From a virus: a stretch of 64,000 nt of DNA. The position numbers and the translations under genes are program-made. Location of the stretch: the IMG/VR virus record IMGVR_UViG_3300005613_000001, positions 463,113-527,112 of that record. One strand, written 5' to 3'. Numbering within the stretch: position 1 is the first letter of the stretch; the number at the start of each line of letters is the position of its first letter. The notes under the pieces are model-generated. The model worked only from the letters and a program-made list of their open reading frames with translations, did not search any database and was not told where the DNA came from. Shown piece by piece: positions 45,473 through 55,813 of the stretch.

Positions 45473-45495
45473 ATTTTATATATGCCTCCAATTAG
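45459..45495 (-). promoter_or_regulatory. Hairpin sequestering ribosome site and start codon
   Basis: Arms 45459-45474 and 45480-45495 are perfectly complementary over 16 bp with a 5-nt loop. On the minus-strand mRNA one arm contains GGAGG, the other the ATG and first four codons (ATGCCTCCAATTAG) of the gene at 45472; the stop of the upstream gene is also within the arm. Ribosomes finishing the upstream gene would open it, giving tight translational coupling. It also contains a TATAAAATA box, so a promoter role is possible. Confidence 0.7.
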
Positions 45496-46001
45496 TTTGT
45501 TGTTGTTCCGTGGGTCCATCCTTGGACCTGATTGGCGTAATCCGTGCCAGTAGTTCGTACTGTGACTCTACCGAGTGGGTCACCAGATTTATCAAATTCT
45601 GATTGTTTCAATTCGTTTTCGGCTTCTGCACTTTTTTGAAAAAACCTGTTTAATTCTTCAACAATAGATTTTATTACTGCTTTACCGGCTTTTTCTTGAT
45701 TTTTGGTATCTGTCATATAATCGGAGAACATGTCCTCTATATCTAGGGGGTATGCTTTACCGAACGGATGTGTTTTTTCTTCTCTTTGAATACGATAAGC
45801 TAGAGAGTCTGCGATTTTATAGATTCTTACACCATCAAATGAGGTTCTGCCATCGGGGCATTTCAGGAACAAATGAGGCTCTTCATCTTCACGGTGGTCG
45901 CCAACAATTTGATTATTTTTTTCTAGTATTTTTTTAACAATACCAAGTTGTTTCTTAGCTTCTCTTGACTTTTTATCAATAAATTCATTAAATGTATTCA
46001 T
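45492..46001 (-). CDS. Probable internal/head protein with capsid-targeting-like N-terminus
   Basis: 169 residues. N-terminus MNTFNEFIDKK resembles the T4 capsid-targeting motif (M-K-x-[FY]-x-[EK]-[FWY]-hydrophobic). Body: KKQLGIVKKILEKNNQIVGD, then PHLFLKCPDGRTSFDGVRIYKI and an acidic helical C-terminal half. No family recognised. It abuts the next gene upstream by 1 nt and couples to the hairpin-controlled gene downstream. Confidence 0.6.
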   Translation of the reverse strand: MNTFNEFIDKKSREAKKQLGIVKKILEKNNQIVGDHREDEEPHLFLKCPDGRTSFDGVRIYKIADSLAYRIQREEKTHPFGKAYPLDIEDMFSDYMTDTKNQEKAGKAVIKSIVEELNRFFQKSAEAENELKQSEFDKSGDPLGRVTVRTTGTDYANQVQGWTHGTTTN

Positions 46002-46204
46002 TAGAATTGTGGCTCCACTTCATCTCCGCATTGAGTACACCAAAAACGATTGCCTTTTCTGAGAATTCTGCCATCGTGTCTGCATTTGTACACGCTAACA
46101 CCTAAACCAGAACCTACACGGGCGGCTCCCTGTTCCCGTTCTTTTCTTCGGTCGGGATCTCTCGTTCTGAAATCTACTTCCGCTAACCATTGTTTAAATT
46201 TCAT
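46001..46204 (-). CDS. 67-residue zinc-ribbon protein with capsid-targeting-like start
   Basis: N-terminus MKFKQWLAEVDFR, with an L-x-E after eight residues that would suit a prohead-protease cleavage (LAE/V). The rest is a small zinc ribbon: YKCRHDGRILRKGNRFWCTQCGDE (C-x3-D..., CxxC). A packaged nucleic-acid-binding peptide is a reasonable inference. Overlaps both neighbours by 1 nt. Confidence 0.6.
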   Translation of the reverse strand: MKFKQWLAEVDFRTRDPDRRKEREQGAARVGSGLGVSVYKCRHDGRILRKGNRFWCTQCGDEVEPQF

Positions 46205-46464
46205 TAGTGGTGATCCCCTTCAACCTTTTTCAACTTTGTATAGTATTTAGGGTCTTCTCTAAGATGAGCCACAGCAATTTTCATAATTGTTCCCTTGTCA
46301 TGACCAGGAACTACATCTGTGTCTTTGCCCATCTTATCGTCGTGTTCCTTTTCTACTTCCATGCCCATCGCCAACTCTTTCATATTTACGCCTTTAATAT
46401 CTACTTTTGCTGTTTTGGCGATTTGTTCTAAACTATTTGATTCAAAAAACTGTTTAAAATTCAT
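46204..46464 (-). CDS. DUF5661-like small protein
   Basis: 86 residues. N-terminus MNFKQFFES (targeting-like, with FFE). The C-terminal ~50 residues, LAMGMEVEKEHDDKMGKDTDVVPGHDKGTIMKIAVAHLREDPKYYTKL, match the DUF5661 pattern (GxxVExEH...kIAxxHLxExPxYYxxL). Function of the family is unknown. Single-base overlaps with neighbours show coupling. Confidence 0.75.
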   Translation of the reverse strand: MNFKQFFESNSLEQIAKTAKVDIKGVNMKELAMGMEVEKEHDDKMGKDTDVVPGHDKGTIMKIAVAHLREDPKYYTKLKKVEGDHH

Positions 46465-48296: not shown

Positions 48297-48662
48297 ATGG
48301 CTGACTTTGAAAATCAAGTTTCTGAATCTATCCGATCCCTGTATGAATTAACCTCTCGTATCGATGAGAGAGTAAAGAATATGGGTAGTTCACTATCTAC
48401 AACGGATGGTAAAATAGAAAAAGATCGCCAAAGTCAAACTGAATTACTACAGAGAATAGCAGCGCTGGAAAGTAAAAATGGGGCGGGGGCTCAAATTAAA
48501 GAATTGGGCGACCGGCTGCGAAAACTAGAGTTGCAAGTTGGAGCCGTAGAAATTATATCTACCGGAAATCAAAGCAAATGGGCGCTGATGACCGATGCAT
48601 TTATGAAAATCGCTGTCATCCTCGCAGCATCCATCCTTATTTGGAAATTGGGTATAAATTAA
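48297..48662 (+). CDS. Coiled-coil protein with C-terminal membrane anchor (XhlA-like)
   Basis: 121 residues: a heptad helix (about 5-80, e.g. LYELTSRIDERVKNMGSSL, IAALESKNGAGAQIKELGDRLRKLELQV) and a single C-terminal transmembrane helix (IAVILAASILIWKLGIN). This is the topology of haemolysin XhlA/lysis-accessory proteins that sit under the holin system, but such tail-anchored coils have other uses. It is divergent from the late run and followed 1 nt later by the nucleotidyltransferase gene. Confidence 0.6.
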   Translation: MADFENQVSESIRSLYELTSRIDERVKNMGSSLSTTDGKIEKDRQSQTELLQRIAALESKNGAGAQIKELGDRLRKLELQVGAVEIISTGNQSKWALMTDAFMKIAVILAASILIWKLGIN

Positions 48663-48663
48663 T

Positions 48664-50283
48664 ATGAGAACATTTAAAGAATACGTTTCATTAAAAGAGG
48701 CGGCTGGAAAAGAGTCAAGCGGGGAGAATATTGTTGCCAAAAATACCACTATCTTAGGTAAAGATGAAGAAGGCGTTGAACCCTTCATGGTTGGCGCACA
48801 ATATAACCGGAAAAACCTTGGCACACTTGTTAAAGCATTTCTTGCCAGCCCCGAAGTAGAATTTGGTCCCAATATGCTTGATAGCAAAGCCACGACAAAC
48901 CCAGGGCAAAGCACAAGCGGTTTGACCAAAAACAAGCTAAAAAAGAAGACCTTGTATCTCGTTGGAGGGGCAGTAAGAGATCACATGTTGGGCCAAACCC
49001 CCAGTGATTATGACTTGGCTACCGATGCTACAATGGATGAAATCCGCCTCATTTTAAAACATGCTGGATTTGCAGAACTTAGACCACAAACTGCGGTGGA
49101 TAAGAAAAAAGAGGATAAAAAGCCTGATCCAAAATACGACAATCTCCCCGCTGCTTCTGATAATCCGAAAAAGTTCTATGTAAAAGGCACAGACATTAAA
49201 GGCACAGAATTCGTCATGGGAGCTAAAATTCATGGCGAAGAATTTGAAATTGCCACCTTTAGAAAAGATTCCAAAGGGGAAAGCGACGGTAGAACAACTC
49301 GTATGAGCTTCACACCCAAGCTTGAAGAGGACGCTGCAAGGCGTGATTTTACAGTCAATTCAATGTATATCCCACTAACAAGTGAGAATGGCCCAAATAA
49401 TAAATTAATTGATATTTATGGTGGGGTGAGAGACTTAAAACGCAAAAAAGTAAGATTCGTAGGCGATCCAAAAGAAAGATTAGAAGAAGATGAATTGCGG
49501 GCTCTTCGTTATGCTAGATTTGCCTCAATTTTTGAAGATTTGGACATGCCAGATGATATTGTAGATGCCATCGGACAAATGGCTGGACTTAAATCTCTAC
49601 AACCGTTCACTGATAAAGCAGGAAGGCAAAGAGATAGAAGAAAAAGAATTCGTGATGAATTCTTAAAAACAATGAAGAAGGCAAGTGTTAATCCTAAAAA
49701 ATACTTGATGGCGTTAAAAAGACTAGGATTAATACCAGCTATATTCCCTAATTTAAAAATTAGATTAGATGGGCCTGATGATATAAGCGATAAAAGAGAA
49801 AAACATTTAGCTATCGCCTGGTTGCTTAAAGACAATGATCCAGCTAGTGTTTATAGTATACTTACAGATGCACACTGGACTCAAGATGAAGCAAAGCGAA
49901 TTAGTTTTCTAATTAAATTCCTTCACTTCCACCCAGAAATTGATCCTGATAACCTCAACCAAATGTCTTCTGCTTTTATGAAAAGTGGCTTATCAAGTGG
50001 TTACCTCGGCGGAAAAGAAATGGGACAAAAATCACTACTTTCAACTTGGGCTCAAATGAATCCTGATAGATTCCCCGAAGGCTCTGTTGATGCTTTCTTG
50101 AAACACGTTAGCCACGGCCCAATTAAAGTATCCCATGAAGATCCAATGTTCGCTGATTTGTTCGTAGTTGATCCCTTCAGCGGCAAAAGGCGTGGAACAC
50201 CAGGCATTGCACAAAGACAAGCAGAATTGGCACATAAGAGATTTTTAGATATCTTTAAAAGCGGCCAAGCAAAAAATGTATGA
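48664..50283 (+). CDS. CCA-adding/poly(A) polymerase-type nucleotidyltransferase with targeting-like N-terminus
   Basis: 539 residues. Class II nucleotidyltransferase motifs are complete: LVGGAVRD (about 97-104), SDYDLATDA (113-121) with the catalytic DxD, RRDFTVNSMY (about 228-237), GDPKERLEEDELRALRYARF (about 265-284) and a RIRDEFLK motif (~327). It extends CCA or A tails on RNA 3' ends using CTP/ATP. The first ~90 residues are extra, beginning MRTFKEYVSLKEAA, like a T4 capsid-targeting peptide with a cleavable L-x-E. That suggests the enzyme is carried in the virion. Overlaps the next gene by 8 nt. Confidence 0.85.
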   Translation: MRTFKEYVSLKEAAGKESSGENIVAKNTTILGKDEEGVEPFMVGAQYNRKNLGTLVKAFLASPEVEFGPNMLDSKATTNPGQSTSGLTKNKLKKKTLYLVGGAVRDHMLGQTPSDYDLATDATMDEIRLILKHAGFAELRPQTAVDKKKEDKKPDPKYDNLPAASDNPKKFYVKGTDIKGTEFVMGAKIHGEEFEIATFRKDSKGESDGRTTRMSFTPKLEEDAARRDFTVNSMYIPLTSENGPNNKLIDIYGGVRDLKRKKVRFVGDPKERLEEDELRALRYARFASIFEDLDMPDDIVDAIGQMAGLKSLQPFTDKAGRQRDRRKRIRDEFLKTMKKASVNPKKYLMALKRLGLIPAIFPNLKIRLDGPDDISDKREKHLAIAWLLKDNDPASVYSILTDAHWTQDEAKRISFLIKFLHFHPEIDPDNLNQMSSAFMKSGLSSGYLGGKEMGQKSLLSTWAQMNPDRFPEGSVDAFLKHVSHGPIKVSHEDPMFADLFVVDPFSGKRRGTPGIAQRQAELAHKRFLDIFKSGQAKNV

Positions 50284-51019: not shown

Positions 51020-51020
51020 T

Positions 51021-51063
51021 CGAAAAGAAAGACCCCTTATCGTTGTTTCCAACAATAAGGGGT
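51021..51063 (-). terminator. Terminator of the structured RNA locus
   Basis: On the minus strand a 13-bp stem with one A-C mismatch closes on a GAAA tetraloop (stem 51032-51045 with 51050-51063) and is followed by TCTTTCTTTTC. On the plus strand no T-run follows, so it serves the minus-strand RNA that converges on the glycosyltransferase gene. Confidence 0.85.
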
Positions 51064-52064
51064 ATTCCCAGCAAGCACGTTCAGGATTCAGCACTCGTTA
51101 GAATAACTAAACCCTCCATTGAGTTCCATCACCTTTTGCCAGTCTCCGCAGGTAGTGCTTACCTTGAGGCTTTTAACCTCACCGCACGCAATTGGTATAA
51201 CCTACGGCGTGATAGTTGTGGGTAGTTTACCTGTTACTTGAACTTTCCGTGCTTCTGATGATTAAATTCCAACATGCTGCTGTTACCACAGTTTAGCTGG
51301 GCCTAATCTCAGGGTGTCACTTGAGCCCTTATAACGGCTCTACTCCTCAACTTCCCATTTTGTTTCGTGGTTGGATTCCACGTCGTTTCTGAATGCCATT
51401 AGGTTGGCATTAGGCTCAACGTTGCTATACAGCCCGACGACTGTGCCCGATATTCTCGGGGGATTTGCTCACAAGCAACTGGCTGCTTGTGGTCTATCCC
51501 GCAACGTGCTAGGGTGTCAGTAAATCCTCAGTTTATCGGCACCAAGCGATCACTTGGCTCCGTATCCGACTGAAGATGCTGATGTTGGGCTGACTTTGTT
51601 CCTTGTCACATTTCTGCGCACAAGGTTTATGTGCCAATCCCACCCTCTAGACGCTTACCACGTTAAATTCGCCTGACTGACAGTTCAGACAAAACCTAAT
51701 ATGGTTGGAAGAGAGACCTACAAATTAATGCTGGGTAGCTGTCAACAACCCGTCTCTAATCCACGCCTCGCATCGAAGCCTGCCTGTGAGTATCCGGTTT
51801 GAATTCTCAGACTTTGCCGTTTCGGCGCTGTCTGTTTCATCATTCCGTGACTTCAAGCTAAAAGGCTCTTTAGAATACCCGTCCGAAGACAAGCTCCCTT
51901 GGATACCTCCGCCTGAGAGTCCCCACCCCTTTTTATGCGGATTGGGGTTTTGTACCCGTGGTCCTATTTTTCAAGAGCCATCGGGTTCCACAGGACTCCT
52001 TGAGGCCACTTACACTTTACAGTATAAGTGCGGAACTCAGTACCAAATTGTCAAAGATCAAAGT

Positions 52065-52235
52065 GAACAGAGCAGGGCTTGCACCTGCATTTCCTGGTTT
52101 ATCTAGTAGTTAAACTAAATTCCCAAGCGTTCTACAAAATTGATACACCTGTTGGGGTGTCCTCTAATCTCAACTTACCGGAGGCAGTGATAAAATTAGA
52201 GGCGAGATCAACTCCGTTAATTGAACTATCTGTTC
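52065..52235 (-). other. tRNA-like module B within the ncRNA
   Basis: The 5' strand GAACAGA (52235-52229) is complementary over 7 bp to TCTGTTC (52071-52065). Directly before the latter lies a T-arm-like hairpin GCAGG-TGCAAGC-CCTGC (52088-52072), the exact acceptor/T-arm geometry of a tRNA, and an A follows as discriminator. The interior is ~130 nt of other hairpins, including CCTCTAAT/ATTAGAGG and ACACC/GGTGT, instead of an anticodon arm. The T-loop lacks the usual TTC. Confidence 0.5.
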
Positions 52236-52238
52236 AGG

Positions 52239-52368
52239 CGAACAGGGCAGGATTCTCACCTGCATTTCCGGTAGCGGTGCTTTGGACAACGCTTCCAGCG
52301 TTTTGCACTATTCACTTGACACTGCCGGATGGCCGAGCAACTAATTAGTGCAGTTAAACTACCTGTTC
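52239..52368 (-). other. tRNA-like module A within the ncRNA
   Basis: GAACAGG (52368-52362) pairs over 7 bp with CCTGTTC (52246-52240), preceded by a T-arm-like hairpin GCAGG-TGAGAAT-CCTGC (52263-52247) and followed by G. Interior: AACT/AGTT small arm and a long arm CCGGCAGTG...CGCTACCGG with an AACGC/GCGTT tip. It shares the GAACAGRTAGTT start and AAATGCAGGTG with module B and lies 3 bases from it. A competing hairpin CTGTTC-GCCT-GAACAG spans the A/B junction. Confidence 0.5.
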
Positions 52369-52386
52369 TTGTGTTTCGTTCCCAGC

Positions 52387-52414
52387 ATTTTAACAAATCA
52401 TTTGGCTGTGTCAA
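52387..52414 (-). promoter_or_regulatory. Promoter P2 of the structured RNA
   Basis: TTGACA (52414-52409), 16-bp spacer, TAAAAT (52392-52387); predicted start near 52380, about 12 nt before tRNA-like module A. Confidence 0.78.
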
Positions 52415-52475
52415 GCCCAATTTTTTGTCCGGTCTGCTGAGTAACCTTTGCCTTCTTCTCTGTTCTGTGCCCAGC

Positions 52476-52503
52476 ATTTTAACAAATCATTTGGCTGTGT
52501 CAA
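52476..52503 (-). promoter_or_regulatory. Promoter P1 of the structured RNA
   Basis: Same elements as P2, TTGACA (52503-52498), 16-bp spacer, TAAAAT (52481-52476); start near 52469. Transcripts from P1 would carry an extra ~89-nt leader containing P2. Confidence 0.75.
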
Positions 52504-52512
52504 GCCCAATTT

Positions 52513-52908
52513 GTTCGGACTGCTGGTGACCTTTTGCTAAATTTTTCTCAATTCACTTATCAACCGTAGTTGATGCATTGTGATTGCGAATGGCTTTAGC
52601 TGCCTGGGTTCCCTCCACATGATTGACAACTTTTCCGAAGAGGTTGTCACAGTTTTTTTTCAGGGCTCCTCTTGTACTCCGTTGCCACACGGGCGGGTTC
52701 CCAAATCTCTCAAGGTGGCTTTATGATAACGACTTCTCCTCTTCTGTCAAGGGCAGAAGTTTGGGGATCGCTGCCTCTCTCCCTAGAGGCAGCAATTCCC
52801 CAGGAGCGTTAAAGGCTTCCATCGCCACCGATTGTGTTTTCAAAGAACGTTTGCCCCGAAGGACGAGAGCCAAGTATAGCGGTTTGCCAAATCCATGCAA
52901 CCCCAATT
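52513..52908 (-). other. Non-coding interval with strong hairpins upstream of the RNA promoters
   Basis: Between the end of the 52.9-55.2 kb gene and promoter P1. It holds a 9-bp perfect hairpin GCTGCCTCT/AGAGGCAGC (about 52771-52794) enclosed by GGGGA/TCCCC, a 6-bp CTTCTG/CAGAAG, and a 7-bp TGACAAC/GTTGTCA (about 52624-52650). A 63-codon minus-strand frame starting with GTG at 52912 is present but resembles nothing known and has no ribosome site; I treat it as unproven. The segment may be a separate small RNA or the 3' untranslated region of the upstream gene. Confidence 0.45.
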
Positions 52909-55164
52909 TCACCGCTTGGAGGACTTTTTCTTGGAGAAGCGTAGCTTTTTAAATTTTCTACGCATATTGTCTTTTTTGTCTATCTCACCAGGAGGGTCGG
53001 AGTCACCGCATTGTCCCCTAAATGCCCCGCTTCCATCACCACTAGAAGAAAATGTATTCAGATCACCGTCTTCCCAAAAGCGGTTTTCTCCAAGACTACC
53101 GAGGAACTCACTATGATGTTTCCGAATATCAGCAGCATCTTTGGAACTAATTATACCTAATTTCTGTTGAAAGTCTATCCAATCACTAAGGGCTTCGCCT
53201 CCCCATGATATTCTTTCAAACCCGCTTAGTTTATTAAGAGGTTTAAACCGTACTGCTTTATCAATATGGTCTAACTTTTCTTCTCCTGGGTAGTTAATTT
53301 GGAAGAATTTTTTAGCCCTACGAATATTTGGTACAAATGCCTGGCCGTAAGATTTCCTGTCAGGAAGCTCATCTGATTCCATTGCATCGTGAAGATGCTT
53401 AAGCCTTCTTAAGAATTCGGACATATACACTTTCATGTCGGCATCTTGCATTGCTTGATCGTAAAACCTTTTAAGTATTTGACGATTATTCAAGGATGGT
53501 TTTTCTTTTGTTAATTTTCGCCAAGAATAAACTAAGTGTATTGCATGTGTTGTCTGTCTTATTGCTCTTTTTTCCCAATCTTCACGCTTTGAATCTACTG
53601 CCGCCTCTATTACTTCAAGCGTTTTCCTTAGAGTTGTTTCCAAAGAATGTTTTGTCATTTCCTCTGTGGTGCCTCTAATTGAAGAGCGATTTTTATAACC
53701 GGATGATCTACCATAGGAAACTATACTGTGAGCGCCTCTGTCTTCATCCCAATAATCAGCTTCATCTTTTAGATTGTTAAACCAATCATTGAATTCCCCG
53801 GTTAATTCAACCGAATCACTTATATCAAAATCTTGAGGAAGTCCTTTCCGTTTCCTCCACTCCGCCTTTAGGAAACTTTTCCACAAATTCATATCCCAAA
53901 GATATTCATTAGAAACTTTATATTGTCTTCTAAATTGATCTGCTAATTGGGCATATTTCAAACTAGGTCGTCCTTCAACTTGTTTATGTGTAGGATTTTC
54001 AAAGTTTGGAACTGTTGCAACGTGTTCCCAAGTACCAGGCGTAAGAAAAACAGCTTGCGTTGGCTCAGACGCATAAATAGTATCCGTCCCTATATCAGAG
54101 ATCCCAGAGACTCCCATTTTTCTTAGAATAGCTGACCACGTAATCCACGGGCGAGTATCACTAAGTTTGTCTGACCATCGTTTTGCCACCTGATAGAGAA
54201 CACCTATATCTGAATTGAAGCTATTTGATTTCACCCATTCTTTTGTTTTCTCAAAATCAACCTCAGGATGTTTTTCAGCAAATTTTTTCAACACATCCTC
54301 AAAAGGAATTCTACCCTGTTTACCCCTTTTGATTAATCTTTTTACATGCGTCCAATATTCTTTAAGTGTCTTGTTTATAAAGCGTATTGATTTTTCGCCA
54401 AGATTTTCTTCAATATCTAAATACTCACTGTTTTTCAAAATATCCCAAAAACCATCAACAAGCTCGTCCCAATTCACCTTTTTTATATCTCTAATAGAAC
54501 CAGACAAAGTAAGACTTTTATAAAGTGACTGCTGTAATGAATCTAGTGCTCTTGCTATCACTTGATACCATTGAACTTCATCCCTGGGTTCTCCAAAAAA
54601 CTCCTCAAGGTCTTCATTTTCTATTTTCCACACTTTCTGTAAGTGCTTAGAGATAACCATTCTATACTGATTTAACAAATACAAAGGATCTCGCCCGGCA
54701 TTGATAGACGAAGTTTGCATCATCTTGCCTTTATCATTCTTCTTCTTTGTTATTAAGACTTGAATCCAAGGCTTAGCAGAGGCAAACAAATCATCTGGGT
54801 TATCTCTCATCATTTTGATTGCATAACGAATTGGATATGCATAAAGACCTATAGGCGTCTCTGTCCATGTTGTCTTGGGATTAATGCCTAATTTTTCAAG
54901 ATCAGTGAAACTAACCCATATTTCCTTGGGATGTACACCTTTAGTTTTTAAAGCTTTTTTAATAAACTCTAAATGTGTTATTCTTTCATCATAACGATAT
55001 GTCCGCCCCGTTTTTGGATTGATAAGAGGGTGTTTCACATGGGCGGGAACTATCTTCTTTTGACCTTCTAAGATAGACTCAATGAGCATCTCCATCTCCG
55101 TGTTGTGGAGATCAAGTAAAATGTCCTCACATTCGGAGGTTATTAAATACTCAGAGAACTTCAT
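52909..55164 (-). CDS. Large protein with capsid-targeting-like N-terminus, unknown function
   Basis: 751 residues from the ATG at 55164. An earlier in-frame start (55323) would overlap the divergent heat-shock gene and its leader, and the sequence there is not protein-like. The chosen start gives MKFSEYLITSECEDILLDLHN, similar to T4 targeting peptides. Beyond residue ~45 is a Lys-rich segment containing PAHVKHPLINPKTGRTYRYDERITHL, then long mixed helices with many Trp/Lys. No catalytic motif is recognised; C-terminus very basic (RRKFKKLRFSKKKSSKR). A packaged, possibly injected, DNA-binding protein is inference. Confidence 0.65.
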   Translation of the reverse strand: MKFSEYLITSECEDILLDLHNTEMEMLIESILEGQKKIVPAHVKHPLINPKTGRTYRYDERITHLEFIKKALKTKGVHPKEIWVSFTDLEKLGINPKTTWTETPIGLYAYPIRYAIKMMRDNPDDLFASAKPWIQVLITKKKNDKGKMMQTSSINAGRDPLYLLNQYRMVISKHLQKVWKIENEDLEEFFGEPRDEVQWYQVIARALDSLQQSLYKSLTLSGSIRDIKKVNWDELVDGFWDILKNSEYLDIEENLGEKSIRFINKTLKEYWTHVKRLIKRGKQGRIPFEDVLKKFAEKHPEVDFEKTKEWVKSNSFNSDIGVLYQVAKRWSDKLSDTRPWITWSAILRKMGVSGISDIGTDTIYASEPTQAVFLTPGTWEHVATVPNFENPTHKQVEGRPSLKYAQLADQFRRQYKVSNEYLWDMNLWKSFLKAEWRKRKGLPQDFDISDSVELTGEFNDWFNNLKDEADYWDEDRGAHSIVSYGRSSGYKNRSSIRGTTEEMTKHSLETTLRKTLEVIEAAVDSKREDWEKRAIRQTTHAIHLVYSWRKLTKEKPSLNNRQILKRFYDQAMQDADMKVYMSEFLRRLKHLHDAMESDELPDRKSYGQAFVPNIRRAKKFFQINYPGEEKLDHIDKAVRFKPLNKLSGFERISWGGEALSDWIDFQQKLGIISSKDAADIRKHHSEFLGSLGENRFWEDGDLNTFSSSGDGSGAFRGQCGDSDPPGEIDKKDNMRRKFKKLRFSKKKSSKR

Positions 55165-55169
55165 AAAAA

Positions 55170-55177
55170 TATTTATA
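55170..55177 (-). promoter_or_regulatory. T4-late-like TATAAATA box abutting the start codon
   Basis: TATAAATA on the minus strand (55177-55170) ends five bases before the ATG at 55164, so transcription would begin at or next to the start codon (leaderless). No ribosome site is present. A -35-like TTGGAC lies 18 bp upstream. Confidence 0.4.
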
Positions 55178-55309
55178 GTTTGGCACTCAATTTGCGTCCA
55201 AATTAACTTAATTAAATTAGCTGTCAATATGGCAGCTAGAAGCCTAGACCTTGTAGGATGGGCTAACTGGACGTAGTTACGACAGTTTTTATAGAAAGAG
55301 AGGTATAGT

Positions 55310-55813
55310 ATGTTACGTCGCAATCGTCATGGGCATGGACACGGTAGATGCCGAAATGATTTTCTTTTCCCAATTGAAACGCAACTCAATAAGCTTTTTG
55401 ACCAATTCTTTGAAAGTGATGGTTTAAAAGATTCTGTCAAATCAACTCAGGGATATCCAAAAATGGATGTTATTGAAGATGATAATTGTTTGCAATTCAA
55501 ATTGGCGGTTCCTGGTGTGAAGTTAGATGATCTTCAAATTGAAGTTGAGGACTTTTTGGACAGGGTATCGCCCCATAGAATTTTAACAATCTCGGGTAAA
55601 ATGTCGGAAGAGTACGCTTCAAAAGATGATGCTGTATTCCACATCAGAGAACTAAGACACTCCCAATTCCAGAGAGTGCTTCAAATTCCTGATCTTGTAG
55701 AAGGAGAACCTGAAGCTGAACTTCATGATGGCATTTTGGTTCTCAAATGGAAAATCAAAAAGGAAGAATTGCCTCCTACAAAGAAAGCAATTCCAATTAA
55801 AACTACTGAATAA
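55310..55813 (+). CDS. Small heat-shock protein (Hsp20/alpha-crystallin)
   Basis: 167 residues. His/Gly/Arg-rich start (RRNRHGHGHGRC), then the alpha-crystallin domain from about residue 48 to 150: PKMDVIEDDNCLQFKLAVPGVKLDDLQIEVED, RILTISGKM, FHIRELRHSQFQRVLQIPDLV, AELHDGILVLKWKIKK, ending with a proline tail. The usual A-x-x-x-n-GvL motif appears as AELHDGILVLKW. It is an ATP-independent chaperone; several phages carry one, probably for capsid assembly or stress. Ribosome site GAGAGG, and a strong terminator follows. Confidence 0.92.
   Translation: MLRRNRHGHGHGRCRNDFLFPIETQLNKLFDQFFESDGLKDSVKSTQGYPKMDVIEDDNCLQFKLAVPGVKLDDLQIEVEDFLDRVSPHRILTISGKMSEEYASKDDAVFHIRELRHSQFQRVLQIPDLVEGEPEAELHDGILVLKWKIKKEELPPTKKAIPIKTTE

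Follow-up and report, generated by a model that had tools for sequence, protein, structure and literature searches.

A CCA-type nucleotidyltransferase of a huge phage carries a predicted T4-type capsid-targeting tag and may be delivered at infection

Phage head proteins injected together with the DNA are at work before any host response is possible, and the known ones of T4 counter first-line defences. In T4 the capsid-targeting sequence (CTS) consists of the first 10 residues of IPIII, where targeting depends on positions 4 and 7 and processing on positions 8 and 10; L/I-x-E marks the point after which the gp21 protease cleaves (PMC9026906). IPIII is needed on one host strain and acts in the cytoplasm, so packaged proteins can serve as a first-response counter-defence (PMC9391042). 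Enzymes can travel the same way: the ADP-ribosyltransferase Alt is packaged into the T4 head, cleaved by gp21, injected and active on host machinery (PMC9026906; T4 annotation). CCA-adding enzymes and RNA-repair genes of jumbo phages have been proposed to function in tRNA maturation and repair (PMC7824862; RaK2 gp031, PMC3622015), yet in the open-licence papers that we found there is no report of a CCA enzyme that is CTS-tagged or delivered by the virion.

The window analysed here, a stretch of 64,000 nucleotides, is the final 64 kb of a 527,112-base IMG/VR virus record that represents a phage of ~527 kb. On its plus strand, at 48664..50283, lies a 539-aa open reading frame for a class II (CCA/PAP-type) nucleotidyltransferase with an N-terminal extension, the single copy of a CCA-type gene in the genome and, like the jumbo-phage enzymes above, a member of this class in a large phage. 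The protein matches Pfam PolyA_pol, the head domain of the poly(A)/CCA family (E=3e-28), and PHROG 2244, 'tRNA nucleotidyltransferase' (E=1e-42). The catalytic head, placed at residues 97-290 by motifs and alignment (48952..49533, plus strand), has intact class II motifs, GGAVRD and DYD (101-117), RRDF (226-229) and EEDELR (274-279), and an insert of ~40 residues after motif A. Residues 291-539 (49534..50280, plus strand) were assigned to the neck, body and tail region from Pfam, AlphaFold and Foldseek. The Pfam and PHROG matches and the motifs thus bear out the reading, in an earlier note on this DNA, of a full class II nucleotidyltransferase, and its extension of ~90 residues is real since the head domain begins at about residue 95-97. 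The enzyme shares GGAVRD, DxD, RRD, EDxxR and a class II body with the CCA-adding enzymes of bacteria and mitochondria but differs from them in its N-terminal tag, a further piece of ~40 residues and the insert after motif A. The upstream partner ORF (121 aa; 48297..48662, plus strand) reads as a probable coiled coil with a hydrophobic C-terminus and stays beside the CCA gene both in the related sequence L054 and in LR756511.1, a 595-kb relative whose own CCA-enzyme ortholog is 43-49% identical.

The extension is not one unit: it comprises a 12-aa tag, a variable linker, a small folded piece and a second loop. Residues 1-12, MRTFKEYVSLKE (48664..48699, plus strand), form a predicted capsid-targeting propeptide by the tag profile, ortholog conservation and the T4 CTS rules. 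Aromatics stand at positions 4 and 7 (F4, Y7), followed by an L-x-E site (L10-K11-E12) before A13, and cleavage by the prohead protease is predicted after E12, between LKE and A. The linker, residues 13-25 (48700..48738, plus strand), differs in length among orthologs and is of low confidence, with pLDDT <50 over residues 11-25 of the AlphaFold model. The small structured piece at residues ~26-69 (48739..48870, plus strand; AlphaFold and alignment) occurs only in the closest orthologs, at 43-78% identity, and the model places its folded part at about 27-66 and the second loop at residues 70-88. Eight orthologs all share M1, T3, F4, E6, L10 and E12 and have an aromatic residue (F/Y) at position 7; only three positions are invariant over the 24 residues after E12, and ortholog length changes begin at residue 13. 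Orthologs as distant as 43-48% identity retain the starting peptide. The likeness to the T4 internal proteins IPI, IPII and IPIII lies in the aromatics at positions 4 and 7 (MKTFKEF in ipI, MKTYQEF in ipII and ipIII, MRTFKEY here) and, for ipII and ipIII, in a peptide with L/I-x-E as its last residues, ahead of A; the start of ipIII in the T4 record reads MKTYQEFIAE, followed by A, and that of ipI reads MKTFKEF.

The targeting-like peptide that the earlier note saw at the start of the protein is therefore present and conserved and, as an N-terminal motif across the genome, far from chance, but it is not peculiar to this protein, as the note had supposed: dozens of proteins have it. Genes were called from overlapping 20-kb pieces with a simple ORF rule, so start sites are approximate. 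With a strict motif, M-x(1-3)-[FY]-[KRQ]-[EQD]-[FWY], 17 starts were found in this phage against 0.4 (shuffles) to 0.95 (internal Mets) expected, or 23 when any Met in the first 40 residues was allowed, and 17 in LR756511.1 against 0.8-1.6 expected. Because this motif was formulated after the data were seen, a profile was trained on one of the two phages and tested on the other. At scores of at least 14 the cross-trained profile found 20 and 15 starts, compared with none in shuffles and none among >2000 internal Mets. A combined profile at scores of at least 8 found 36 and 47 proteins in the two phages, a few of them expected to be false. We estimate about 30-35 tagged proteins in this phage and about 40 in the relative. 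As a positive control, the combined profile ranked ipIII, ipI and ipII first, third and fifth among 268 T4 ORFs. Tagged proteins also more often have [IL]xE within residues 7-22, in 15 of 23 versus 118 of 754 untagged proteins in this phage (p=2e-7) and in 8 of 22 versus 155 of 994 in the relative (p=0.016). For each huge phage the profile thus nominates about 30-40 candidates for ejection that can be tested, mostly without an assigned function and encoded by phages not yet grown in culture. The second-ranked T4 ORF was 61.1 (NC_000866 18966-19130), a 54-aa protein that begins MKTFKEFIKED and may be an overlooked T4 internal protein.

Other members of this cohort lie within the window on the minus strand. 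By motif and profile, these include a tagged small protein beginning MKFKQWLAE, followed by V (46004..46204), and a DUF5661 protein (Pfam) beginning MNFKQFFESN (46207..46464), whose tag is kept but re-lettered in L054 (MKTFLEFCESK) and precedes ~75 extra residues in LR756511.1. A tag-like N-terminus, MNTFNEFIDKK, is found at 45492..46001, with MLEFKEFIDKK and MIKFIEFIDKK in its orthologs. Most tagged proteins match no family. Exceptions in this phage include an AAA_33 P-loop kinase (polynucleotide-kinase-like), a Nudix protein and a GNAT-like protein. In the relative they include a C39-type peptidase, a fungal-tRNA-ligase-type phosphodiesterase and a Swiss-Army-knife HAD phosphatase encoded directly downstream of the CCA gene; HAD_SAK was found only in the relative and is absent from this phage. 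As separate observations, two large proteins, at 52909-55323 of the window and at G000 432266-436144, have tag-like starts (MKFSEYLITSE and MSGSKLEFADFF) and, behind these, a similar stretch (KTGRTYRYDERITHLEFI / TPIGLYAYPI); the former has no Pfam match.

The machinery on which such a tag would act is encoded in the same genome. A peptidase S77, the T4-type prohead protease of the gp21 family (record 426124-426855, E=5e-27), a gp23 capsid protein (E=2e-83), a gp22-like scaffold gene (record 425196-426131) and the portal gene are all adjacent, and the N-terminus of the capsid protein has a conserved TGLLE (an LLE site) in both phages. S77 was detected in 6 of 18 related contigs, all six >130 kb; the 12 without a match include several short fragments but also some large contigs (e.g. 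of 381 kb and 508 kb). The portal gene (G000 429339-431912), as read from its translation, has an apparent intein or Hint-type insertion within its first third. The phage thus resembles T4 in having a gp21-family protease, a gp22-like scaffold and gp23 alongside tagged proteins. It differs in the scale and nature of the cohort: T4 has three internal proteins (perhaps four with 61.1), which are small and anti-defence where their role is known, whereas here there are dozens of tagged proteins, including a large enzyme of RNA 3'-end metabolism. Packaging has been measured only in T4 and is predicted here from sequence. Alt offers a precedent for an enzyme as head cargo, and the same fate is predicted for the CCA enzyme, although Alt has an unrelated fold and target and was not among the top tag-profile matches in T4.

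Our combined findings suggest that a tag of T4's kind has been placed on a new kind of cargo. The suggestion in the earlier note that the enzyme is a virion protein, more precisely an internal head protein, is, as a prediction, well supported by sequence (the T4-type tag with L-x-E, the prohead protease, the cohort in two phages and the conservation among orthologs). Since the enzyme starts with an address tag of the T4 kind, the virus may bring with it, at infection, an enzyme that finishes or repairs tRNAs. What was computed directly is the enzyme's fold and catalytic motifs, the presence of the tag here and across the genome, the genes for protease, scaffold and capsid, and the lack of encoded CCA in the tRNA genes; from these we infer docking, cleavage, packaging, ejection, activity and substrate. 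The precursor would carry the 12-residue T4-type CTS, which late in infection would dock it onto the prohead scaffold. The phage gp21/S77 protease would then cut after LKE, and a mature enzyme of about 527 aa would be retained in the head alongside the DNA. At the next infection the enzyme would be ejected with the genome and would act at once on tRNA 3' ends, both those of the phage's own CCA-less tRNAs upon their transcription and those of tRNAs damaged by host defence RNases. We consider it probable that the protein is a CCA-adding class II nucleotidyltransferase that is packaged, cleaved and ejected in this way and that finishes or repairs tRNA 3' ends. If so, tRNA 3' ends would be a battleground in the first minutes of infection, and a phage with 59 tRNA genes would bring its own tool to finish them.

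Potential substrates are abundant. ARAGORN found 59 tRNA genes in this phage (G000 record 55-168 kb and 309-321 kb) and 63, in clusters, plus a tmRNA in the relative, and CCA is encoded in none of the 59 and none of the 63. A CCA-adding activity, from host or phage, is therefore needed for the phage tRNAs. This same need gives the strongest competing explanation its force: the enzyme could work only inside the infected cell, maturing the 59 CCA-less tRNAs, with the tag a relic or a sorting signal for a destination other than the head (e.g. a replication or assembly site). The need exists without packaging, and maturation in the cell is the usual reading of jumbo-phage CCA enzymes (PMC7824862; PMC3622015). 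However, the tag with its L-x-E site is maintained in 8 of 8 orthologs, the tag profile retrieves the packaged internal proteins of T4, and a prohead-protease site is not what one would expect at the end of a tag with another destination. We thus regard a purely intracellular role as unlikely, though it is the most serious rival to delivery from the virion. For a delivered enzyme too, the phage's own 59 CCA-less tRNAs and/or damaged tRNAs are likelier substrates than an RNA at 52 kb (see below). Several features of these genes stand on their own. About 56 of the 59 tRNA genes, and about 57 of the 63 in the relative, continue with C-T directly behind the discriminator base and so read NCU rather than NCCA, and the conservation of this 3' boundary is striking; putative suppressor tRNAs (CTA, TTA) are present; and the tmRNA gene of LR756511.1 (L034:47280-47632) encodes the tag peptide ANPEFAMAA.

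A second alternative concerns the reaction itself. The protein, whether or not it is packaged, could instead tail mRNA and not tRNA, as a poly(A) polymerase or some other enzyme that extends RNA 3' ends. Class II poly(A) polymerases and CCA enzymes have common catalytic motifs, and the best raw NCBIfam score was to the PcnB subfamily (112 bits, against a cut-off of 306), with the CCA models close behind. All NCBIfam CCA and PcnB models were below cut-off for the 539-aa protein, so that a choice between the two activities from family models fails. Structure points the other way. An AlphaFold model built from 17 aligned sequences (mean pLDDT 79.7, pTM 0.74) has the overall class II fold, a head followed by a helical neck, body and tail, and its best Foldseek match is the human mitochondrial CCA-adding enzyme 4x4w (E=2e-14); the best matches in a PDB sequence search are also CCA-adding enzymes (human mitochondrial entries 8cbm/4x4w), and the fold alignments to CCA-adding enzymes have 16-23% identity. 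In addition, the PHROG family is that of tRNA nucleotidyltransferases, an ortholog has its top NCBIfam score with a CCA model, and the phage has its 59 tRNAs without CCA. We therefore hold a poly(A)-type activity to be improbable; CCA addition is the likelier activity but unproven, because no curated specificity model for either activity reaches its cut-off. Least plausible by far is a mainly structural or binding head protein on an old nucleotidyltransferase fold with dispensable catalysis. In its favour, orthologs L057/L058 (DYN) and L061/L062 (NYD) have one of the two DxD aspartates replaced by Asn and may have lost activity or taken on another role; against it, this enzyme and most relatives keep every motif, and GGAVRD and RRD are among the best-conserved parts across orthologs.

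We also looked at the N-termini of CCA enzymes from other phages. A single-sequence search of IMG/VR for relatives of the enzyme found none, and a search with a two-sequence alignment found 80. Distant phage CCA enzymes begin with different short peptides, many of which end in x-x-E (LRE before G, VNE before S). At 16 of 40 distinct loci such peptides resemble the starts of unrelated neighbours on the same contig (score of at least 20), compared with 4% when the enzyme was set against neighbours from other contigs (loci swapped); the corresponding p=1e-8 is optimistic because the contigs are partly related. We infer that these other peptides may have the same role as the T4-type tag. The peptide looks like a plug-in, because some enzyme cores occur both with and without it (L091, MKNEIRQILREGQIMEQ-RIKFDIPIP, versus L101/L103, with MSEK-RIKFDIPIP in L103). 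As a point against packaging, the CCA enzymes of the three cultured phages checked (Atu_ph07, ME3 and S-CBWM1) are untagged. It is a tentative extension, possible rather than probable, that a CCA-adding enzyme is routine head cargo of huge T4-like phages, and of phage lineages that use different tags, and travels with some other RNA and nucleotide enzymes as a virion-delivered kit for tRNA maturation and repair that acts before phage gene expression. In the two phages its members would include the polynucleotide-kinase-like P-loop protein, the Nudix protein, the Swiss-Army-knife HAD phosphatase and the tRNA-ligase-type phosphodiesterase. The RNA ligases of both phages are without a tag, which led us to reject tagging of the entire RNA-repair set, and a complete packaged repair kit is not supported. 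Among the relatives, L066, L068 and L069 are viral ORFs of 995-1302 aa in which an N-terminal nucleotidylyltransferase-like domain (FGGGFKPPTKGH / GRFHPFHSGH) is fused to a CCA-type head.

Tagged genes also tend to share an upstream element. CTAAATA, mostly at -11 to -14, precedes 7 of 31 tagged versus 9 of 746 other genes in this phage (p=7e-7) and 6 of 34 versus 14 of 982 in the relative (p=2e-5), and has the look of a shared promoter, possibly a late one. The T4 late promoter TATAAATA was not enriched at tagged genes and was rejected as their signal. The CCA gene itself has no CTAAATA, another point against packaging; it stands second in a two-gene unit, and upstream of the first gene there is only GTAAATA, at about -54.

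Finally, the earlier note had proposed that the enzyme might service a neighbouring tRNA-like RNA at 52 kb. No recognisable tRNA was found in the window, and no tRNA or Rfam family at 52 kb; ARAGORN detected no tRNA there at its default or at a 90% threshold, and its weak calls at thresholds of 70-80% do not match those made in the L054 homologue of the stretch. A link between the enzyme and this region is therefore unsupported, closeness alone connecting the two. The region has features of its own. At 51020-52908 on the minus strand there are ~1.9 kb without genes, with the same flanking genes in L054, and 51020-52600 is ~80% identical there, with indels. The region contains direct repeats of 55 nt and 30 nt, and minus-strand folding was more stable than in mononucleotide shuffles in 7 of 7 200-base windows (z -2.3 to -4.1). 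It may thus encode a large structured non-coding RNA.
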